Of a stretch of DNA of 8,163 nt, positions 1 through 5,950 are shown piece by piece. The DNA is taken from contig CAAEVD010000140.1 of assembly GCA_900759435.1 (NCBI GenBank), forward strand, positions 1 through 8,163, given 5' to 3'. Made by a program: the position numbers and the translations under genes. Each line of letters starts with the position of its first letter. The stretch's first letter is position 1. The notes beneath the pieces were generated by a model that was not told the DNA's origin, did not search any database, and was given only the letters and a program-made list of their open reading frames with translations. This stretch comes from an uncultured Collinsella sp. (GTDB lineage Bacteria; Actinomycetota; Coriobacteriia; Coriobacteriales; Coriobacteriaceae).

Positions 1-975
1 GCCTGCGCCATGAAGAACGCCGGCGTGGGCGTGGGCCTGCCCGATGCCGGCCGCTGCAAGATCCGCGTCGAGGATGGCCGCGCCGTGGTCTACGCCGCCA
101 CGTCCGACATCGGCCAGGGCTGTAACACCGTCTTTTTGCAGGACGTTGCCGAGGCCTGCGGTCTGCCGCTTCGTTGCATCGCCAACGGCGAGTGCTCCAC
201 CGAGAACGCTCCCGACTCCGGCACCACGTCTGGCTCGCGTCAGACGGTCGTGACCGGCGAGGCCGTGCGCGGTGCCGCCTTCCTGCTGCGCGATGCCATG
301 CTTGACATCGAGGCCGGCAAGTCTGCGCCCGCCGCTCCCGTGAATGCGCATGGCGACGGCGTCAAGATCGAGTACGACGACGGTCGCGCCTATCAGCTGC
401 ACACGCAGGAGTTCGTCGCCGGCCAGGGTATGCATCCTCAGGATCCCGCGGCCGCCATCAAGGCGCTCGAGGGATGCGAGTTTGGCTACGTGTACCTGGA
501 GCCGACCGACAAGCTGGGCGCCGACGTTCCCAATCCCAAGAGCCACATCTGCTACGGCTTTGCCACGCACGTGGTCATTTTGGACGATGACGGCCGCGTG
601 AGCGAGGTCTATGCCGCGCACGATTCCGGCAAGGTGGTCAACCCCATCTCCATTCAGGGCCAGATCGAAGGCGGCGTGCTTATGGGTATGGGCTATGCGC
701 TTACCGAGGATTGGCCGCTCAAGGACTGCGTGCCCCAGGCAAGGTATGGCACGCTCGGGCTGTTCCGTGCGCCCGAGATTCCGGATATCCACGCCATTTA
801 CGTGGAGAAGGACGAGCTGCTGCCCGTTGCATATGGCGGCAAGGGCATCGGCGAGATCGCAACGATCCCCACGGCGCCCGCCGTACAGAACGCCTACCGC
901 GCGTTTGACGGCAAGCTGCGTCCGGATCTGCCCATGGTGGATACGCCATACAGCCGCGCCCGTCGCCGCGGCTAG
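1..975 (+). CDS. xdhD: Selenium-dependent xanthine dehydrogenase, molybdenum-binding C-terminal part (5' end outside window)
   Basis: The reading frame is open from base 1 and ends with TAG at 973-975, giving 324 visible residues; the start lies upstream, so the ATG at 10 is internal. The residues resemble the C-terminus of E. coli XdhD and SeXDH enzymes of the xanthine oxidase family: GVGVGLPDAG near the left edge, then IGQGCNT (cofactor-binding Q-loop type), PDSGTTSGSRQTV followed by TGEA, GQIEGG, RYGTLGLFRAPEIP, and GGKGIGEIATIPTAPAVQNAY-like residues near the end. The Glu of GKGIGE (codon 852-854) sits where the family's catalytic base lies. The family hydroxylates purines such as xanthine in the cytoplasm using molybdopterin with a labile selenium ligand; that selenium is not encoded as selenocysteine, and none is seen here. 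A hairpin and an intrinsic terminator follow, so this is probably the last gene of its operon. Substrate is inferred from the family only. Confidence 0.9.
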   Translation, partial: ACAMKNAGVGVGLPDAGRCKIRVEDGRAVVYAATSDIGQGCNTVFLQDVAEACGLPLRCIANGECSTENAPDSGTTSGSRQTVVTGEAVRGAAFLLRDAMLDIEAGKSAPAAPVNAHGDGVKIEYDDGRAYQLHTQEFVAGQGMHPQDPAAAIKALEGCEFGYVYLEPTDKLGADVPNPKSHICYGFATHVVILDDDGRVSEVYAAHDSGKVVNPISIQGQIEGGVLMGMGYALTEDWPLKDCVPQARYGTLGLFRAPEIPDIHAIYVEKDELLPVAYGGKGIGEIATIPTAPAVQNAYRAFDGKLRPDLPMVDTPYSRARRRG

Positions 976-979
976 GGTA

Positions 980-1017
980 GAGCGCGTACGGCCATTGCTA
1001 ACGGGCCGTTCGCGCTC
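980..1017 (+). repeat. Inverted repeat (hairpin) just after xdhD
   Basis: Two 14-nt arms (980-993 and 1004-1017) pair with one mismatch around a 10-nt loop. It starts 5 nt after the xdhD stop codon. It has no following T-run, so by itself it is not an intrinsic terminator; it may stabilise the 3' end of the mRNA ahead of the true terminator at 1045. Confidence 0.6.
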
Positions 1018-1044
1018 AGCATCAACTACATACGCTGCGCCTTT

Positions 1045-1080
1045 GGCCCCAGCTCCATCGCGAGCCGGGGCCTTTTGTTT
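1045..1080 (+). terminator. Intrinsic terminator of xdhD operon
   Basis: Arms GGCCCCAGCTC (1045-1055) and GAGCCGGGGCC (1062-1072) pair with one A/C mismatch around loop CATCGC, followed at once by TTTTGTTT. The loop, 3' arm and T-run recur almost unchanged at 3049-3074. Confidence 0.88.
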
Positions 1081-1096
1081 GGAGCGCCTCCGCATG

Positions 1097-1425
1097 CGGA
1101 AGATTCGTCCCAGATTTCGGCTCCAGAATGGGGCGTACTTTCCGGACGGGCTTCAAACGGAAACTGTATCCCGGATTCGACGCTCAGAATGGGATTCGTT
1201 TTCCGGTAGAGGCCTCAAATGGAAAGTGTGTCCCGGAATATGGCTTCAGCCTGGGATGCATTTTCCGGTTGAAGCCTCAAGCGGAAACTGCGTCCCGGAA
1301 TTCGGTCTCGGAACGGGTCGTGCTTTCCGGATCGCCCCTCAACCGGAAGCTGTGTTCCGGAATCATGCCTCAGAATGGGACGCGCTTTCCGTTGGCGTGG
1401 CCGTTGGGAAAACGCGGCCCAGATA
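1097..1425. repeat. 62-bp tandem repeat array 1 (about 5.3 units, dyad-symmetric)
   Basis: Units begin at 1097, 1158, 1220, 1282, 1344 and 1406, so the period is 61 and then 62 four times; the last unit is partial. Each unit has the form CGGAAA-N5-TCCC, a middle of about 18 nt containing a GCTCAGAAT-like word, GGGA-N5-TTTCC, then a linker of about 14 nt often reading GAGGCCTCAA. The two halves are inverted copies, so dyad centres fall every 31 bp. As RNA each unit folds into a 14-bp-arm hairpin; in the unit at 1220 all 14 positions pair (1221-1234 with 1253-1266) when G-U pairs are allowed. The array lies between the xdhD terminator and the 3' end of the converging AbiEi-like gene. Frames open across it are not taken as genes, because a 62-bp period shifts frame with every unit. 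Confidence 0.85.
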
Positions 1426-1463
1426 GGGGGGATGCGATCCGGCGATGCGCGGCCTAGCAGCTC

Positions 1464-2462
1464 CTACAGCTCCACTTCGTTGAGCCACGTCGGCAGCGCG
1501 GTCTGCCGGATGCCTGCCGTCTGAAGCTTTTTGGTGAGCATTCCTGCCGAGCGGACCTCGTTCATGGTAAAGCGCAGCAGAGGGTGACCGTAGAGCGATA
1601 GGTGCGCCTCGCGCTGTCGTTCGGCAACGAGCGCCTCGGCGGTGGTGCGCCCGGCTAGCATGGCCTGGTCGGTATATTTGACGAGCCCGTCGAGTTCTCC
1701 CAACGTGAGCTCCCGCGCCTGGGTCTCCCAGGCAAAGTCCGTTCGCATGGTTTCGGTCGAATCGAAGGGGTCCGTCAGCTCGTATTGAAGCCAGTCGGGC
1801 GCAAAACCGGTCTCGATCATGACGGCTCGGGCGACCGATTCCCCACCGCTCTCGGCGCGGACGTCGGCATATCGAAGCGTTGTGAGGGCGGTGCGAATTG
1901 CGCGACCATTGCGGGCAGTCGCTCGTTGCTCAACGGCCTCCATCAGCTGTTCCCGCGTAAGGCCGAGCTTTGAGATCGCCGAATCGGCAATGGGCATGCC
2001 GTCGGCAAAACCAGTTTGCAGCAGGCAATCTGTGGCCGTTTGGATAGGCGGCGTTACCGATATGCCGACTCTGCGTATTGCACCGGCCGGCTCAATCTGG
2101 TGCCGCTGAATATGTGCGCCCGGACGAGCCGACGGCTTTGTCGAGCTGCAGACATGCACGACATTCAGGTGTCGCCACGAGACCTCGAGCCCCAGCAGGC
2201 AGGCAGCCGAAAACGAGCAGAACGTCCAATCGGGGTGGATGATCGCAAGGGCGCGGATAATCTCGCAATGGCGTTGCGCTCGGTTTAGTTCATCCCAGCG
2301 TATTTTGCGCGCGAACAATCCCGGCATGGGGGAGACGACCATGTCGCCGATGCGCCGCAGGAGCGCTTTTCGGATCGCCGCGCTCGGGGGAATCAGACAG
2401 CGCCCCTCTTGTTCGGCTTGGGTGAGCAGTTGGTCGATGAGTTGGTCATTGCAATGGGTCAT
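1464..2462 (-). CDS. AbiEi-like winged-helix / DUF559-like nuclease-fold protein
   Basis: This gene encodes 332 aa. The ATG is at 2462, with AAAAGGAGG at 2472-2480 giving 9-nt spacing. The N-terminal 80 or so residues resemble the AbiEi-type antitoxin/regulator winged helix (QLLTQAEQEG..IPPSAAIRKALLRRIGDMVVSPMPGLFAR). The middle (FSAACLLGLE.. to about residue 160) fits the actinobacterial AbiEi-like extension. The C-terminal 120 residues resemble DUF559/Vsr-like PD-(D/E)XK folds: conserved helix ESVAR near 208, D242 in TDFAW, E256 in GELDG, K262, the ERQRE helix near 281 and LLRF near 295. AbiEi proteins usually repress an operon with the AbiEii nucleotidyltransferase toxin; no such toxin is next to it. 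It stands alone, with 62-bp arrays on both sides. Its role is unknown, whether DNA-binding regulator, remnant antitoxin or nuclease. Domain calls are from recalled family patterns. Confidence 0.75.
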   Translation of the reverse strand: MTHCNDQLIDQLLTQAEQEGRCLIPPSAAIRKALLRRIGDMVVSPMPGLFARKIRWDELNRAQRHCEIIRALAIIHPDWTFCSFSAACLLGLEVSWRHLNVVHVCSSTKPSARPGAHIQRHQIEPAGAIRRVGISVTPPIQTATDCLLQTGFADGMPIADSAISKLGLTREQLMEAVEQRATARNGRAIRTALTTLRYADVRAESGGESVARAVMIETGFAPDWLQYELTDPFDSTETMRTDFAWETQARELTLGELDGLVKYTDQAMLAGRTTAEALVAERQREAHLSLYGHPLLRFTMNEVRSAGMLTKKLQTAGIRQTALPTWLNEVEL

Positions 2463-2471
2463 GAGCTACCG

Positions 2472-2480
2472 CCTCCTTTT
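2472..2480 (-). promoter_or_regulatory. Ribosome binding site of the AbiEi-like gene
   Basis: The minus-strand AAAAGGAGG lies 9 nt before the ATG at 2462 and fixes that start. Confidence 0.75.
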
Positions 2481-2516
2481 GGGTAGCAAAAACGTATCAG
2501 CCGGAACTTGCCGCTC

Positions 2517-2549
2517 AGCTGACCAAAAGCTGACCAAAATCTAACCATG
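2517..2549. repeat. 11-bp direct repeats upstream of the AbiEi-like gene
   Basis: AGCTGACCAAA occurs at 2517-2527 and again at 2528-2538, followed by a degenerate third copy ATCTAACCATG (2539-2549). The repeat of about one helical turn lies 55-87 bp upstream of the minus-strand start, so it could be a binding site for the encoded winged-helix protein. That function is inference. Confidence 0.5.
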
Positions 2550-2758
2550 CAGGTAGATGGCCTGGTTTTGACGTCATTTTTTGAAGCTGAATCGGTGGGC
2601 GGTAATCGGCATCCGTGAACGGTAGCTAGATATGAAGCCTTGGTAAGTTTAGGGACGTTTACTTTTCCGAAAAAGAGCAATCTATCTGCTGTTTTGTGTT
2701 TCTGGATCGCATATTTGAAGGCATGTGATAAAGGCGGCGGATCGTCGGCTGGTATCTG

Positions 2759-3012
2759 CGGAAACTGTGACCCGGAATTGCCACTCGGAATGGGACGTGC
2801 TTTCCGGATCGCCCTTCAAGCGGAAACTACATCCCAGATTTCGGCTCCAAACCGGGATGTGCTTTCCCGGCGGCGTCTCTGGCGGAAATTGCACCCCGGA
2901 ATGAGCGCTCAGAGTGGAACATGCTTTCCTAACGAAGCCGCATGCGGAAACTACGTCCCGGATTCGATGCTCAGGACGGGATGCCGTTTCCGATAGAGGC
3001 ATGGGGCGGAAA
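2759..3012. repeat. 62-bp tandem repeat array 2
   Basis: Units begin at 2759, 2821, 2883, 2945 and 3007, all exactly 62 bp apart. They share the structure of array 1 (CGGAAA..TCCC..GGGA..TTTCC). Hairpin pairing of the arms is 12 of 14 at 2759, 13 of 14 at 2821 (with ACATCCC facing GGGATGT), about 9 of 14 at 2883 and 12 of 14 at 2945. The fifth unit keeps only its first bases and then runs into a perfect hairpin (3013-3046) and a copy of the xdhD terminator tail. After that copy, at 3087-3101, CATCCCGGAATTCGG again looks like the start of a unit. Confidence 0.85.
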
Positions 3013-3046
3013 GCCTCCCATTTCTAATGTTCAAGAAATGGGAGGC
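3013..3046. repeat. Perfect 13-bp inverted repeat
   Basis: GCCTCCCATTTCT (3013-3025) and AGAAATGGGAGGC (3034-3046) are exact reverse complements around an 8-nt loop. No T-run follows directly; the next hairpin (3046-3062) shares its last base. It replaces the fifth unit of array 2. Confidence 0.75.
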
Positions 3047-3074
3047 AGCTCATCGCGAGCTGGGCCTTTTGTTT
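3046..3074 (+). terminator. Terminator-like copy of the xdhD terminator
   Basis: CAGCTC (3046-3051) pairs with GAGCTG (3057-3062) around loop ATCGC, followed by GGCC and TTTTGTTT. From CTC through TTTTGTTTGGAGCG it nearly matches 1053-1087. The stem is shorter here because the upstream GGCC partner is missing, so it is probably weaker. Confidence 0.5.
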
Positions 3075-3150
3075 GGAGCGGAGGCAGCATCCCGGAATTC
3101 GGGCAATCCGGTGGTCAGGGGTTGAGCGAGCGTCGCGCTAAGGATGCCAA

Positions 3151-3242
3151 GCGTAAAACCTTCAATGAAAATGGCGTAAAAACTACAGTGAAAGTAGCGT
3201 AAAAACAGCATTGAGAATGGCGTAATTTCGCATATCGCATGA
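3151..3242. repeat. Four 23-bp tandem repeats
   Basis: Copies start at 3151, 3174, 3197 and 3220, exactly 23 bp apart. The core is GCGTAAAAAC followed by a looser CA.TGA.AATG half; copy 4 is diverged after GCGTAA. The array ends exactly where the homologous part of the truncated ATPase begins (3243). The period is not a multiple of three, which argues against coding. It may be the original upstream region of that ATPase gene. Confidence 0.75.
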
Positions 3243-3893
3243 TCGCCCGAGCTTGCACACGGCCTTTTGCGAGCTCTTGCCATGAACGAGAGCCAGGCTG
3301 TCACGTACAAGACGCTCATAAAGGACGCCTCGTACGGTGAGGCGGGCCCCGACGAGAGGACCATCGCTGCGCACCTGGATCTCTTCAAGAGACTCAAGCT
3401 GACCGAGGACCTGTGCGGATGGGAGCCGCCCATGCGCTCGAGGACCCGCGTTCGCGTGCGCCCCAAGCGCTACTTCTGCGACCCGTCACTTGCGGCGGCG
3501 TTTCTGGGGGCTACCCCTGAGCGGCTGCTTGGCGATATGCAAACGCTGGGGATGCTCTTTGAGAACCTCGTTCTGCGCGACGTGCGCGTGTTTCTTTCCA
3601 CCTATGGCGGTGTCGATAACAGTGTCCATTATTTCCGAGATGAGAAGGGCCTTGAGGTCGATCTGATCGTTGAGCACGACGGGCGCTGGGGAGCCATCGA
3701 GGTCAAGCTGAGTGATGCGAAAGCAGACGATGGAGCGAGAAATCTCAAGGCGCTGGAGAGGAAAGTGCTCTCCAATCCTGCCGCCCAGAATGCCGCGCCG
3801 ACGTTTTTGGCGGTCGTGGTTGGAAAGGGGAGCATTGCCTACACACGCGACGACGGCGTGGCGGTGATCCCCATGGCGGCACTTGGGGCGTAG
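3243..3893 (+). pseudogene. AAA/DUF4143-type ATPase, 5'-truncated (C-terminal half only)
   Basis: The frame is open from 3243, just after an in-frame TGA, to TAG at 3891-3893, about 216 residues. It resembles the C-terminal DUF4143 half of ATP-binding proteins of the AAA_14/DUF4143 type: SPELAHGLLRALA (linker after the ATPase domain), TIAAHLDLFKRLKLTEDL (winged helix), RYFCDPSLAAAFLG, GMLFENLVLRDVR, YFRDEKGLEVDLIVE and WGAIEVKLS. The last two form a nuclease-like D..E.K pattern. Full proteins are about 400-450 residues, with Walker A and B motifs first; none is present upstream, where the frame is stopped and the sequence is 23-bp repeats. Starts at TTG 3267 or ATG 3282 have no good ribosome binding site. 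I infer loss of the N-terminal half by deletion; expression of a stand-alone domain cannot be excluded. Confidence 0.82.
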
Positions 3894-4349: not shown

Positions 4350-5084
4350 GTGTCAGCTGAAAAGACGCCGTGTATCTCGGCTAGCGATACGACGAACTTT
4401 GCGCGCCAGATTGTGCTGGACTTTGAGTTTGCGCCGGTGCCAAAGCAACGCCAGCGCCGTGGGCTGCGCAATGAGATCATCGAGGTCGGCGCCGTCAAGC
4501 TCGATTACCACGGCAACGTTATGGGCGAGTTCTCGCAGTTTGTGCAGACGGAATTTACCGAAGGCATTGCGTTTCCCGTCCGCGAGCTCACGGGGATATC
4601 GGCGGTGGATACCGCGATGGCCGATCCGCTCTACGTGGTGATCAAAAGGCTCAGCGATTGGATCGGTCGCTACTCCGCCCAAGTGGTCTGTTGGAGCGGG
4701 ACGGACCGTCGACAGCTTTTGACCGAGTGCCAGGCAAAGCACATCGACCTTTCCGCATTTCCTACGGACTGGGCCGACCTGCAGGCGTTTTACACCTCGA
4801 TTATGGACGTGGGCAGCCACGGGTGCGTCTCGTTGGGCGACGCGGCAACGTGGTTTGGCATCGAGTTTGACGAGTCGACGGGCCACGCCCACAGCGCCCT
4901 GGCCGATGCGCGCGTGACCGCAAAGTTGCTCAGGCAGATGATGGACGGGGACTATCGCGTGAGCCCGCGCGCCCAGGAGATCCGCCAGCGATGGGGGATG
5001 GGCGAGCGACCCCAGACGCGCCTTTCCAGCAAGTGCCCCGAGCTGAGCGATCTGCTGCTGAAGCTGAAGGCGGAGGGGAGGTAG
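4350..5084 (+). CDS. DEDDh-family 3'-5' exonuclease (ERI-1/RNase T-like)
   Basis: This gene encodes 244 aa from GTG 4350. AGAAAGG at 4335-4341 lies 8 nt before that start; the frame runs further upstream, but without a Shine-Dalgarno sequence and with unconserved residues. All catalytic positions are visible: ExoI D24-x-E26 in VLDFEF, followed by NEIIEVGAVKLD; ExoII D119 in CWSGTDRRQLL; ExoIII H181 and D186 in HSALADARVTAKLL. The C-terminal 55 residues are a charged extension. The insert PVPKQRQRRGLRNEIIE after ExoI resembles the ERI-1/KapD-like exonuclease branch, so RNA or DNA 3' trimming in the cytoplasm is likely; the substrate is unknown. The gene is monocistronic as seen, converging on the 140-aa gene at 5195-5617, with 110 bp between stops and no clear terminator there. 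Confidence 0.88.
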   Translation: MSAEKTPCISASDTTNFARQIVLDFEFAPVPKQRQRRGLRNEIIEVGAVKLDYHGNVMGEFSQFVQTEFTEGIAFPVRELTGISAVDTAMADPLYVVIKRLSDWIGRYSAQVVCWSGTDRRQLLTECQAKHIDLSAFPTDWADLQAFYTSIMDVGSHGCVSLGDAATWFGIEFDESTGHAHSALADARVTAKLLRQMMDGDYRVSPRAQEIRQRWGMGERPQTRLSSKCPELSDLLLKLKAEGR

Positions 5085-5194: not shown

Positions 5195-5617
5195 CTACGC
5201 CCCCGCAATCCCGCGCGCGGCACTCAGCAGCTCGTACTCCCTTTGGTTCCACTGGCGCAGATCGGCGGCGTTGACGGCATCGCGACACAGATCCAGGAAC
5301 ACCTCGGCGCCCTCGTAGAAACACTTGCGGGCAAAGTCACCCGAGCCGTCCGCGATGCACGTGCCGTCTGCAAACAGCTTCCAACTCGACGGCTCGCGCG
5401 AGTCATCTCCGAGCAACTTGATCTGCAGTACGTGCGGATTGTCGGCAACGCAGAGCTCTTCCTCGAGCTTTTGTACCGTAAAGCGCATCTGGTGGGAGAG
5501 GCTGCTCTTGACCATGGCCGAGGCGTAGCCGTTCGGCTTGTCCAGAAGATGCATTCGTTTTGGCTTGGCTGCCAGATTGTGGAAGTTGCGCTCGTTGCGC
5601 ACGGAGAAATTGTCCAT
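5195..5617 (-). CDS. Hypothetical protein (140 aa) behind a structured leader
   Basis: The start is ATG 5617, beginning MDNFSVRNERNFHNLAAKPK; AAAGGAG (5623-5629) sits 5 nt upstream. The frame extends 71 codons further upstream, but that stretch is the RNA leader. The protein is soluble and of mixed charge, with no signal peptide or membrane segment. Visible blocks are a basic N-terminus, HQMRFTVQKLEEELCVADN, LQIKLLGDDSREPSSWKLFADG and a helical C-terminus with ARKCFYEGAEVFLDLCRDAV and LRQWNQREYELLSAA. I do not recognise the family. Three cysteines are spread out and form no metal-binding motif. Codon use agrees with its neighbours, and the good ribosome binding site makes it a likely real gene. 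Confidence 0.7.
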   Translation of the reverse strand: MDNFSVRNERNFHNLAAKPKRMHLLDKPNGYASAMVKSSLSHQMRFTVQKLEEELCVADNPHVLQIKLLGDDSREPSSWKLFADGTCIADGSGDFARKCFYEGAEVFLDLCRDAVNAADLRQWNQREYELLSAARGIAGA

Positions 5618-5622
5618 ACGGA

Positions 5623-5738
5623 CTCCTTTCATCGATGTCGGCAGGGCCACCGTGCCTCTTGGCCGGTTGGCGTCGGGATCTTGGAGCCAACTCTCTACCC
5701 CGACTCTGGATAAAACGCGCCCACTCCTTGCGGGCACG
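5623..5738 (-). ncRNA. Structured mRNA leader, possible SAM-I-clan-like riboswitch
   Basis: Read on the minus strand, the 5' UTR of the 140-aa gene contains several helices. A 7-bp hairpin pairs CGUGCCC (5738-5732) with GGGCGCG (5722-5716). A closing helix P1 pairs UUUUAUC (5715-5709) with GAUGAAA (5633-5627), whose end overlaps the Shine-Dalgarno. P2 pairs GUCGGG (5704-5699) with CCCGAC (5677-5672). GUUGGC in the P2 loop (5691-5686) is complementary to GCCAAC (5671-5666), next to P2. P3 pairs ACCGGCC with GGCaCGGU around AAGA. Several pairs are G-U in the minus-strand RNA only, which favours that orientation. UUAUCCAGAG at the 5' end, GAGAG.UUGGCUCC, GA, CC and CCAACC in order resemble the SAM-I pattern, but the typical GGUGCCAAUUCC segment is absent. 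The structure is moderately secure; the class and ligand are not. Confidence 0.45.
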
Positions 5739-5742
5739 ATGG

Positions 5743-5772
5743 AGTCTATCAGCGCGCGCGGACAGAAATCAA
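5743..5772 (-). promoter_or_regulatory. Candidate promoter of the 140-aa gene
   Basis: On the minus strand TTGATT (5772-5767) and TAGACT (5748-5743) are 18 nt apart, each a 4/6 match. Transcription would begin near 5736, just at the start of the structured leader. Confidence 0.4.
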
Positions 5773-5810
5773 GCGCCGCCTGCGAAATGATGTGCAGACG
5801 GCGCTTGATT
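5767..5810 (-). terminator. Strong hairpin, possible terminator of the 5990-6994 gene
   Basis: Arms of 17 nt (5767-5783 and 5794-5810) pair with one exception around a 10-nt loop. The exception is C/A on the plus strand but G-U on the minus strand, so the minus-strand RNA pairs throughout. The 3' end reads TTGATTTCTGT, only a partial T-run. It lies downstream of the minus-strand gene 5990-6994, beyond the 33-bp array, and overlaps the -35 box of the next gene. Confidence 0.5.
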
Positions 5811-5835
5811 ACGCGGCATTTATTCGGCAAACATC

Positions 5836-5950
5836 CGGAAAAGTGTCGAAATCAGCCGTATGAGAGTACGGAAAAGTGTCAAATTCGAGCCGCCCAAATT
5901 ACGGAAAAGTGTCGAAATGGGCGCGTGGAAATCACGGAAAAGTGTAAAAC
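5836..5950. repeat. Four 33-bp tandem repeats
   Basis: CGGAAAAGTGTC-type cores start at 5836, 5869, 5902 and 5935, exactly 33 bp apart. About 17 bp is conserved (CGGAAAAGTGTCGAAAT) and about 16 bp varies. All copies have the same orientation. The array lies in the 3' untranslated stretch of the minus-strand gene 5990-6994. Because 33 is a multiple of three, two plus-strand frames are open through it and show 11-residue repeats, but neither has a convincing start. The core resembles that of the 62-bp arrays. Confidence 0.85.

Follow-up and report, generated by a model that had tools for sequence, protein, structure and literature searches.

A palindromic repeat found in Collinsella aerofaciens and its closest kin probably acts as DNA, serving as a site for recombination that deletes, exchanges and inverts sequence within and between its own tandem arrays. 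The repeat was analysed in an 8,163-nucleotide stretch from an uncultured Collinsella sp., here called the window, and compared across related genomes. Recombination inside the arrays would allow the defence-like genes that lie between them to be gained or lost. Hybrid arrays would arise through homologous, RecA-type recombination between arrays and not through a dedicated recombinase, although RecA recombination would be expected to be inefficient between units only about 65-75% identical. A DNA-binding protein would hold the near-invariant GGAAA and TCCC boxes of the repeat, much as BIMEs are reported to be bound by proteins such as IHF, while the RNA hairpin that the repeat can form would be a by-product of palindromic DNA. 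Array-bounded gene swaps are seen at one locus, in 20 sequences; two further loci (L034 and L039), which differ between genomes in having an array or genes, are suggestive.

Architecture of the arrays

Array 1 of the window (1096-1404, plus strand) consists of five units of 61 or 62 bp, each made of a 50-bp dyad and a linker of about 12 bp. The dyads occupy 1096-1145, 1157-1206, 1219-1268, 1281-1330 and 1343-1392, and the steps of 61, 62, 62 and 62 bp between them confirm the period of 62 bp with a shorter first step, as well as the symmetry centres every 31 bp, that had been predicted from the sequence. At its right end lies a decayed extra half-site, GGGAAAACGCGGCCCAGA (1402-1424, plus strand), of which another genome (G014) has a better-preserved copy at the equivalent position. 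Tandem Repeats Finder assigns array 1 a score of 189, with 71% matches and 4.3 copies. The original prediction described a single array at 1097-1425; this array is real, but a second one had been overlooked, array 2 (2758-3005, plus strand), which has four units of the same family in the same orientation and stands on the opposite side of the gene at 1464-2462.

Each unit contains two facing 25-bp half-sites with the pattern CGGAAA-N5-TCCC (consensus GCGGAAACTGCGTCCCGGAAT). Facing half-sites are spaced 25 bp apart in 118 of 118 cases and other, non-facing half-sites 36-38 bp apart in 103 of 106, and three further neighbours have the same orientation; many of the arrays behind these counts are related copies, so the counts are non-independent. 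The near-invariant boxes of the dyad, GGAAA, TCCC, GGGA and TTTCC, have their centres at 5, 14.5, 36.5 and 46, followed by 67 in the next unit. These centres are about one or two helical turns apart, so that the boxes would occupy one face of the DNA, a suggestive geometry rather than proof of protein binding. The repeat is far from chance: its profile finds 55 matches (E ≤ 0.01) in the 2.3-Mb contig of genome G012 and none in the same sequence reversed.

Genes of the window

The 3' part of xdh (MoCoBD_2; 10-975, plus strand), annotated in a related record as a selenium-dependent xanthine dehydrogenase, forms the left border of the variable locus. Direct reading bears out the terminator predicted before array 1, a terminator-like hairpin, GGCCCC...GGGGCC-TTTTGTTT (1045-1080, plus strand), directly 5' of the array, which a consensus scan of 900-3300 does not list. 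Between the arrays lies gene A, or module A (1464-2462, minus strand), which is AbiEi-like by a weak PADLOC match (E 0.0039) and reaches no Pfam or NCBIfam family above cut-off. Array 2 is followed by a second copy of the xdh-side terminator flank (3046-3080, plus strand; matching window 1050-1086), a remnant half-site (3078-3101, plus strand) and a fragment of module C (3267-3893, plus strand), the C-terminal half of a DUF4143 ATPase (PADLOC PDC-S01, E 2.1e-26). An exonuclease gene (RNase_T; 4350-5084, plus strand) lies to the right of the variable locus and is present in 12 of the 19 fetched carrier loci and in 16 of 65 genomes.

The window also holds other repeats. Tandem repeats of 23 bp, GGCGTAAAA..., at 3151-3225 stand upstream of the DUF4143 ATPase fragment, and the GGCGTAAAA motif also precedes the intact DUF4143 gene in G002, G011, G014 and G019, as if this gene brought its own repeat leader. 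Tandem repeats of 33 bp, ACGGAAAAGTGTCGAAAT..., occupy 5836-5945; in G003 and G017 the ACGGAAAAGTGTCGAAAT motif lies directly 5' of a full DUF4143 ATPase that is missing from the window. A SAM riboswitch match on the minus strand (5626-5716), with a score of 44.5 against a gathering score of 44.4, is found upstream of a small minus-strand gene (ORF 5195-5830).

Hybrid arrays and gene content at the xdh locus

Comparison of flanks and units shows that some arrays are hybrids, which begin like one array, end like another and lack the intervening gene. The array after gene A in G013 has a left flank 87-95% identical to the array-2 left flanks of seven genomes and a right flank 100% identical, over 150 bp, to that of array 3 in G006, and gene B is missing between the two. 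Array 2 of the window follows the same pattern. Its left flank agrees with the array-2 left flank of G005 at 98.6% identity, and both this flank and units 1-2 resemble array 2 of other genomes (92%, 98%). Unit 3 is equally close to arrays 2 and 3 (82%), and unit 4 is closer to array 3 (88% vs 82%). The 150 bp directly to its right match no array flank because the second terminator-flank copy stands there, and 3074-3202 can be aligned to array 3 of G012, over its right end and the flank beyond, so that in the window, too, the flanks have no gene B between them.

Genomes without gene A provide further cases. In three of them (G015, G036 and G012), the first dyad of the array at the xdh flank shares 98-100% identity with unit 1 of array 2 in the window. 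In six of the seven genomes that lack A and carry B, the array ends in a dyad that agrees at 98-100% with the final unit of array 2. In G011 the mixture falls within one dyad. Hybrid fits are weaker for G018/G019 and G039 and, among genomes without gene B, for G004 and G020. In these sequences, the junctions fall within arrays, and the hybrids are compatible with gain and loss alike.

The locus comparison covers the window and 19 carriers of the repeat with an xdh match (G027, G037 and G038, with no match, were excluded). Directly 3' of xdh, all 19 carriers and the window have an array. Ten of the 19 carrier loci, like the window, contain gene A, and 14 of the 19 contain gene B, a DUF234 ATPase that the window lacks. 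Gene B (from L005) matches PADLOC family PDC-S27 (E 1.3e-61) and gene C (from L004) matches PDC-S01 (E 9.8e-63), both of them candidate defence families. The xdh tree is weakly supported, only 3 of its 17 inner branches being starred as well supported. On it, gene A requires no fewer than seven changes (shuffled mean 7.0), at least three of which are forced by the starred branches alone, and gene B requires four. Gene presence and absence between the arrays thus show no clustering on this weakly resolved tree. In one C. aerofaciens record, NZ_OY725717.1, IS3, IS21 and an AbiEi/AbiEii pair adjoin the array; IS elements are therefore at the locus in one strain, and some of the changes need not involve arrays.

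Distribution of the repeat

Among the genomes examined, the repeat is all-or-none and confined to C. aerofaciens and its closest kin. Scanning genome contigs with a strict pattern gives at least ten stretches, all in Collinsella, the strictness making this a lower bound. A covariance model gives 61-109 matches in each of six carriers (E ≤ 0.01, both strands counted). Across the bacterial family, 22 of 65 genomes have at least 32-75 matches each (E ≤ 1e-6), counts that are lower bounds because 83 candidates were scored per genome, and the other 43 have none at this threshold. The 22 carriers coincide exactly with the genomes in which rplM identity to the query is 99% or more; every other genome reaches at most 93%. 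In non-carriers, no array is found at ten loci downstream of xdh or at ten rplM loci, where one contig ended before the region.

The arrays also recur at matching sites between genomes. The 2.3-Mb contig of G012 carries 11 dispersed clusters, two of them running into the 5' end of a gene called by a simple in-house predictor. When 45 array records, some of them one array fetched twice, were compared with G012, both flanks could be paired in 16, of which one belongs to the xdh locus and 15, representing 14 distinct arrays, to other sites. For 13 of these 14 the matching G012 site carries an array, and for L039 that site carries genes instead. The other 29 records have unpaired flanks; 28 come from the xdh locus with its differing gene content, and the last is L034. 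Same-site arrays vary in length, for example 243/177/182 bp and 120/183 bp, and lengths differ between genomes mostly by near-multiples of 62 bp. A different dispersed palindromic repeat of about 50 bp, GGGACAAGTTTATTTTGGCAGG, lies in L039 at 1364-1422 and 2457-2512 and at no fewer than ten places in G012.

Carriage on mobile elements was considered and rejected. The repeat has no match in the phage collection, and its strict pattern has none in the viral contigs. The one plasmid-labelled record with an array is NZ_OY725717.1 (L221, 420000-430000; L222, 488000-499000), a 900-kb C. aerofaciens sequence named plasmid 6; it bears xdh and smpB and is likely a piece of the chromosome. In the literature, the repeat is not described in the titles or abstract openings of the matches listed. 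PMC8040213 catalogues structured-RNA candidates from microbiomes; 250 are palindromic, and one 51-bp candidate, HMP2_254, comes from Collinsella. The repeat may already be among these candidates as an unnamed entry.

RNA fold, operator and transposase-spread alternatives

The original prediction took the array for an RNA of serial hairpins whose fold is under selection, and the potential to fold is real. The plus strand of 1085-1430 has a folding energy of -159.3 kcal/mol (z -5.6), compared with -131.1 kcal/mol (z -3.4) for the minus strand; the dyad lattice and its capacity for hairpins are upheld, and the full arm pairing claimed for the unit at 1220 is borne out by direct reading, since the unit at 1219 pairs at 16 of 16 arm positions, five of them G-U. 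Selection on this fold is another matter, as the covariation that the prediction asked for is absent from both 67 units and 178 dyads. The first alignment holds 67 distinct units, obtained from 75 of the window and ten Collinsella loci by merging eight exact duplicates and leaving out matches that cover fewer than 40 columns or begin after column 3. Over its 16-pair arm, units pair with their own arm at 85.0% against 86.3% after shuffling, 500 of 500 shuffles reach the observed value, and the covariation score is 0.170 against 0.186 shuffled. Own-arm pairing in 178 unique dyads from 36 sources is 84.4% against 84.9%, permutation of 68 dyads gives no pairing excess with own or next-unit partners, and for the 20 G012 dyads alone the observed pairing is reached in 181 of 1000 shuffles. 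On the shuffled-partner tests an RNA fold under selection was rejected, and compensatory changes beyond chance, the mark of a structured RNA element, are not found in these sets. The conserved boxes pair because they are conserved, while the variable columns drift independently. An apparent pairing excess in inner columns 18-25 (Watson-Crick plus G-U, 0 of 1000 shuffles) is gone for columns 18-23 (303 of 1000); it is a dinucleotide effect of the adjacent columns 25/26, which are unable to pair mutually. Taken singly, column pairs 2/49, 6/45 and 18/33 are weakly in excess (10, 16 and 2 of 400 shuffles), and the whole arm shows no excess. Strand preference was a further part of the prediction, and here the observation stands but the reading does not: the 101 forward dyads of the xdh-side locus contain 202 G-U cells valid on the plus strand against 102 valid on the minus strand (A-C cells), a 2:1 excess that results from column composition and so does not speak for selection on RNA. 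The frequency of A-C cells is 0.058 observed and 0.056 shuffled, and the 11 G012 clusters have 38 plus-strand-valid and 31 minus-strand-valid G-U cells. Moreover, 7 of 38 arrays at the xdh locus, all adjoining xdh, contain inverted unit blocks, which a strand-specific RNA is not expected to tolerate. A scan of 900-3300 yields no promoter-like site (0.9 expected by chance), array 1 stands after a terminator-like hairpin, and no Rfam family reaches its gathering score over the array. Despite the low plus-strand folding energy, the fully paired unit and the G-U excess, a transcribed serial-hairpin RNA under selection is thus very improbable.

Two readings that keep the repeat at the DNA level deserve more weight. 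The repeat may form an operator array or a nucleoid-protein array, acting to control or organise nearby DNA with recombination as a side effect; this reading has a modest chance of being correct and is compatible with a role in recombination. The near-invariant boxes, the fixed, helically phased spacing and the sites common to several genomes, among them positions upstream of dnaK and of a patatin-like gene (both identified by eye), agree with it. However, the G012 clusters lie in four convergent, five tandem and two divergent gaps and so share no common promoter position, and solitary half-sites are not in excess: of the G012 half-sites scoring at least 18, 52 lie inside arrays and one outside, against one in the reversed-genome control, and a transcription-factor regulon was rejected on this ground. 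Somewhat less probable is that a RAYT transposase once spread the repeat as a family of the REP/BIME or REPIN type, the adjacent gene swaps being incidental. Like such families, the repeat is dispersed, intergenic and clustered, with units that alternate in orientation across the 11 G012 clusters, and it forms an inverted doublet at the fixed 25-bp spacing. Each REP is itself an imperfect GC-rich palindrome; the half-site has a weak imperfect palindrome, limited to CGGaA...TcCCG with a conserved mismatch. A Y1_Tnp match occurs at least once in each of the 22 carriers, but also in 31 of the 43 non-carriers. REPs are described with a GTAG or CGTC tag at one end (PMC3733652), and by reading neither tag occurs in the half-site or the dyad consensus. 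The rayt gene is described as flanked by its cognate REP (PMC2817692), and no unit lies in 26 fetched Y1_Tnp loci (104 kb), which comprise 20 long RAYT-like frames from 17 carriers, four IS200-like genes from carriers and two loci from non-carriers, in a survey covering 26 of the carriers' 56 matches. Both Y1_Tnp genes of G012 lie more than 216 kb from the nearest cluster, and RAYT mobilisation was rejected on the absence of the unit from all 28 Y1_Tnp places covered. These two RAYT-like genes, at 759716-760507 (L084/L085) and 880738-881538 (L091), have different palindromes on their flanks, GTCTGTCCCCAATG... and TTTGGGACAAA..., which may be REP families of their own. Lacking the tag, and absent from the Y1_Tnp loci covered, the repeat is not filed as a REP family. 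Recombination between DNA repeats remains the preferred reading; its more elaborate form, a dedicated platform for shuffling defence genes in which a Collinsella protein would bind the phased dyads and drive excision, insertion and inversion of modules in the manner of an integron but with multi-dyad arrays in place of attC sites, is rather improbable.

Significance and comparison with known systems

The repeat is a sequence-defined mark of one lineage of a common human gut actinomycetote, and its arrays offer a concrete means of possible turnover of defence-like genes among strains. Array junctions could also be used as strain markers. For structured-RNA screens of microbiome data, this example shows that palindromic DNA can give rise, as a by-product, to a conspicuous RNA-like fold.

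Among known systems, CRISPR arrays were set aside by the original prediction, and the data agree: the repeats are only about 65-75% alike, the linkers measure only about 12 bp, and no cas family appears among the seven window proteins scanned against Pfam. With BIMEs, the repeat shares an intergenic, dispersed distribution, alternating orientation, a variable number per site and the capacity to form hairpins. Unlike BIMEs, it lacks a GTAG/CGTC tag, does not occur at the surveyed Y1_Tnp loci, is seen in one Collinsella clade only, and bounds gene modules at one locus. REPINs, described as inverted doublets that may form tandem clusters (PMC3116915), resemble it in that the conserved entity is an inverted doublet at fixed spacing and in the occurrence of tandem clusters; the Collinsella doublet, however, is 50 bp long, with abutting halves and no long spacer, is mostly clustered, and has no cognate RAYT among the 26 of 56 carrier Y1_Tnp matches covered. 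Integron attC cassette arrays likewise place palindromic sites of about 60 bp between genes that vary. In those arrays each border is one attC site with boxes of a different sequence, whereas in Collinsella it is formed by several tandem dyads.
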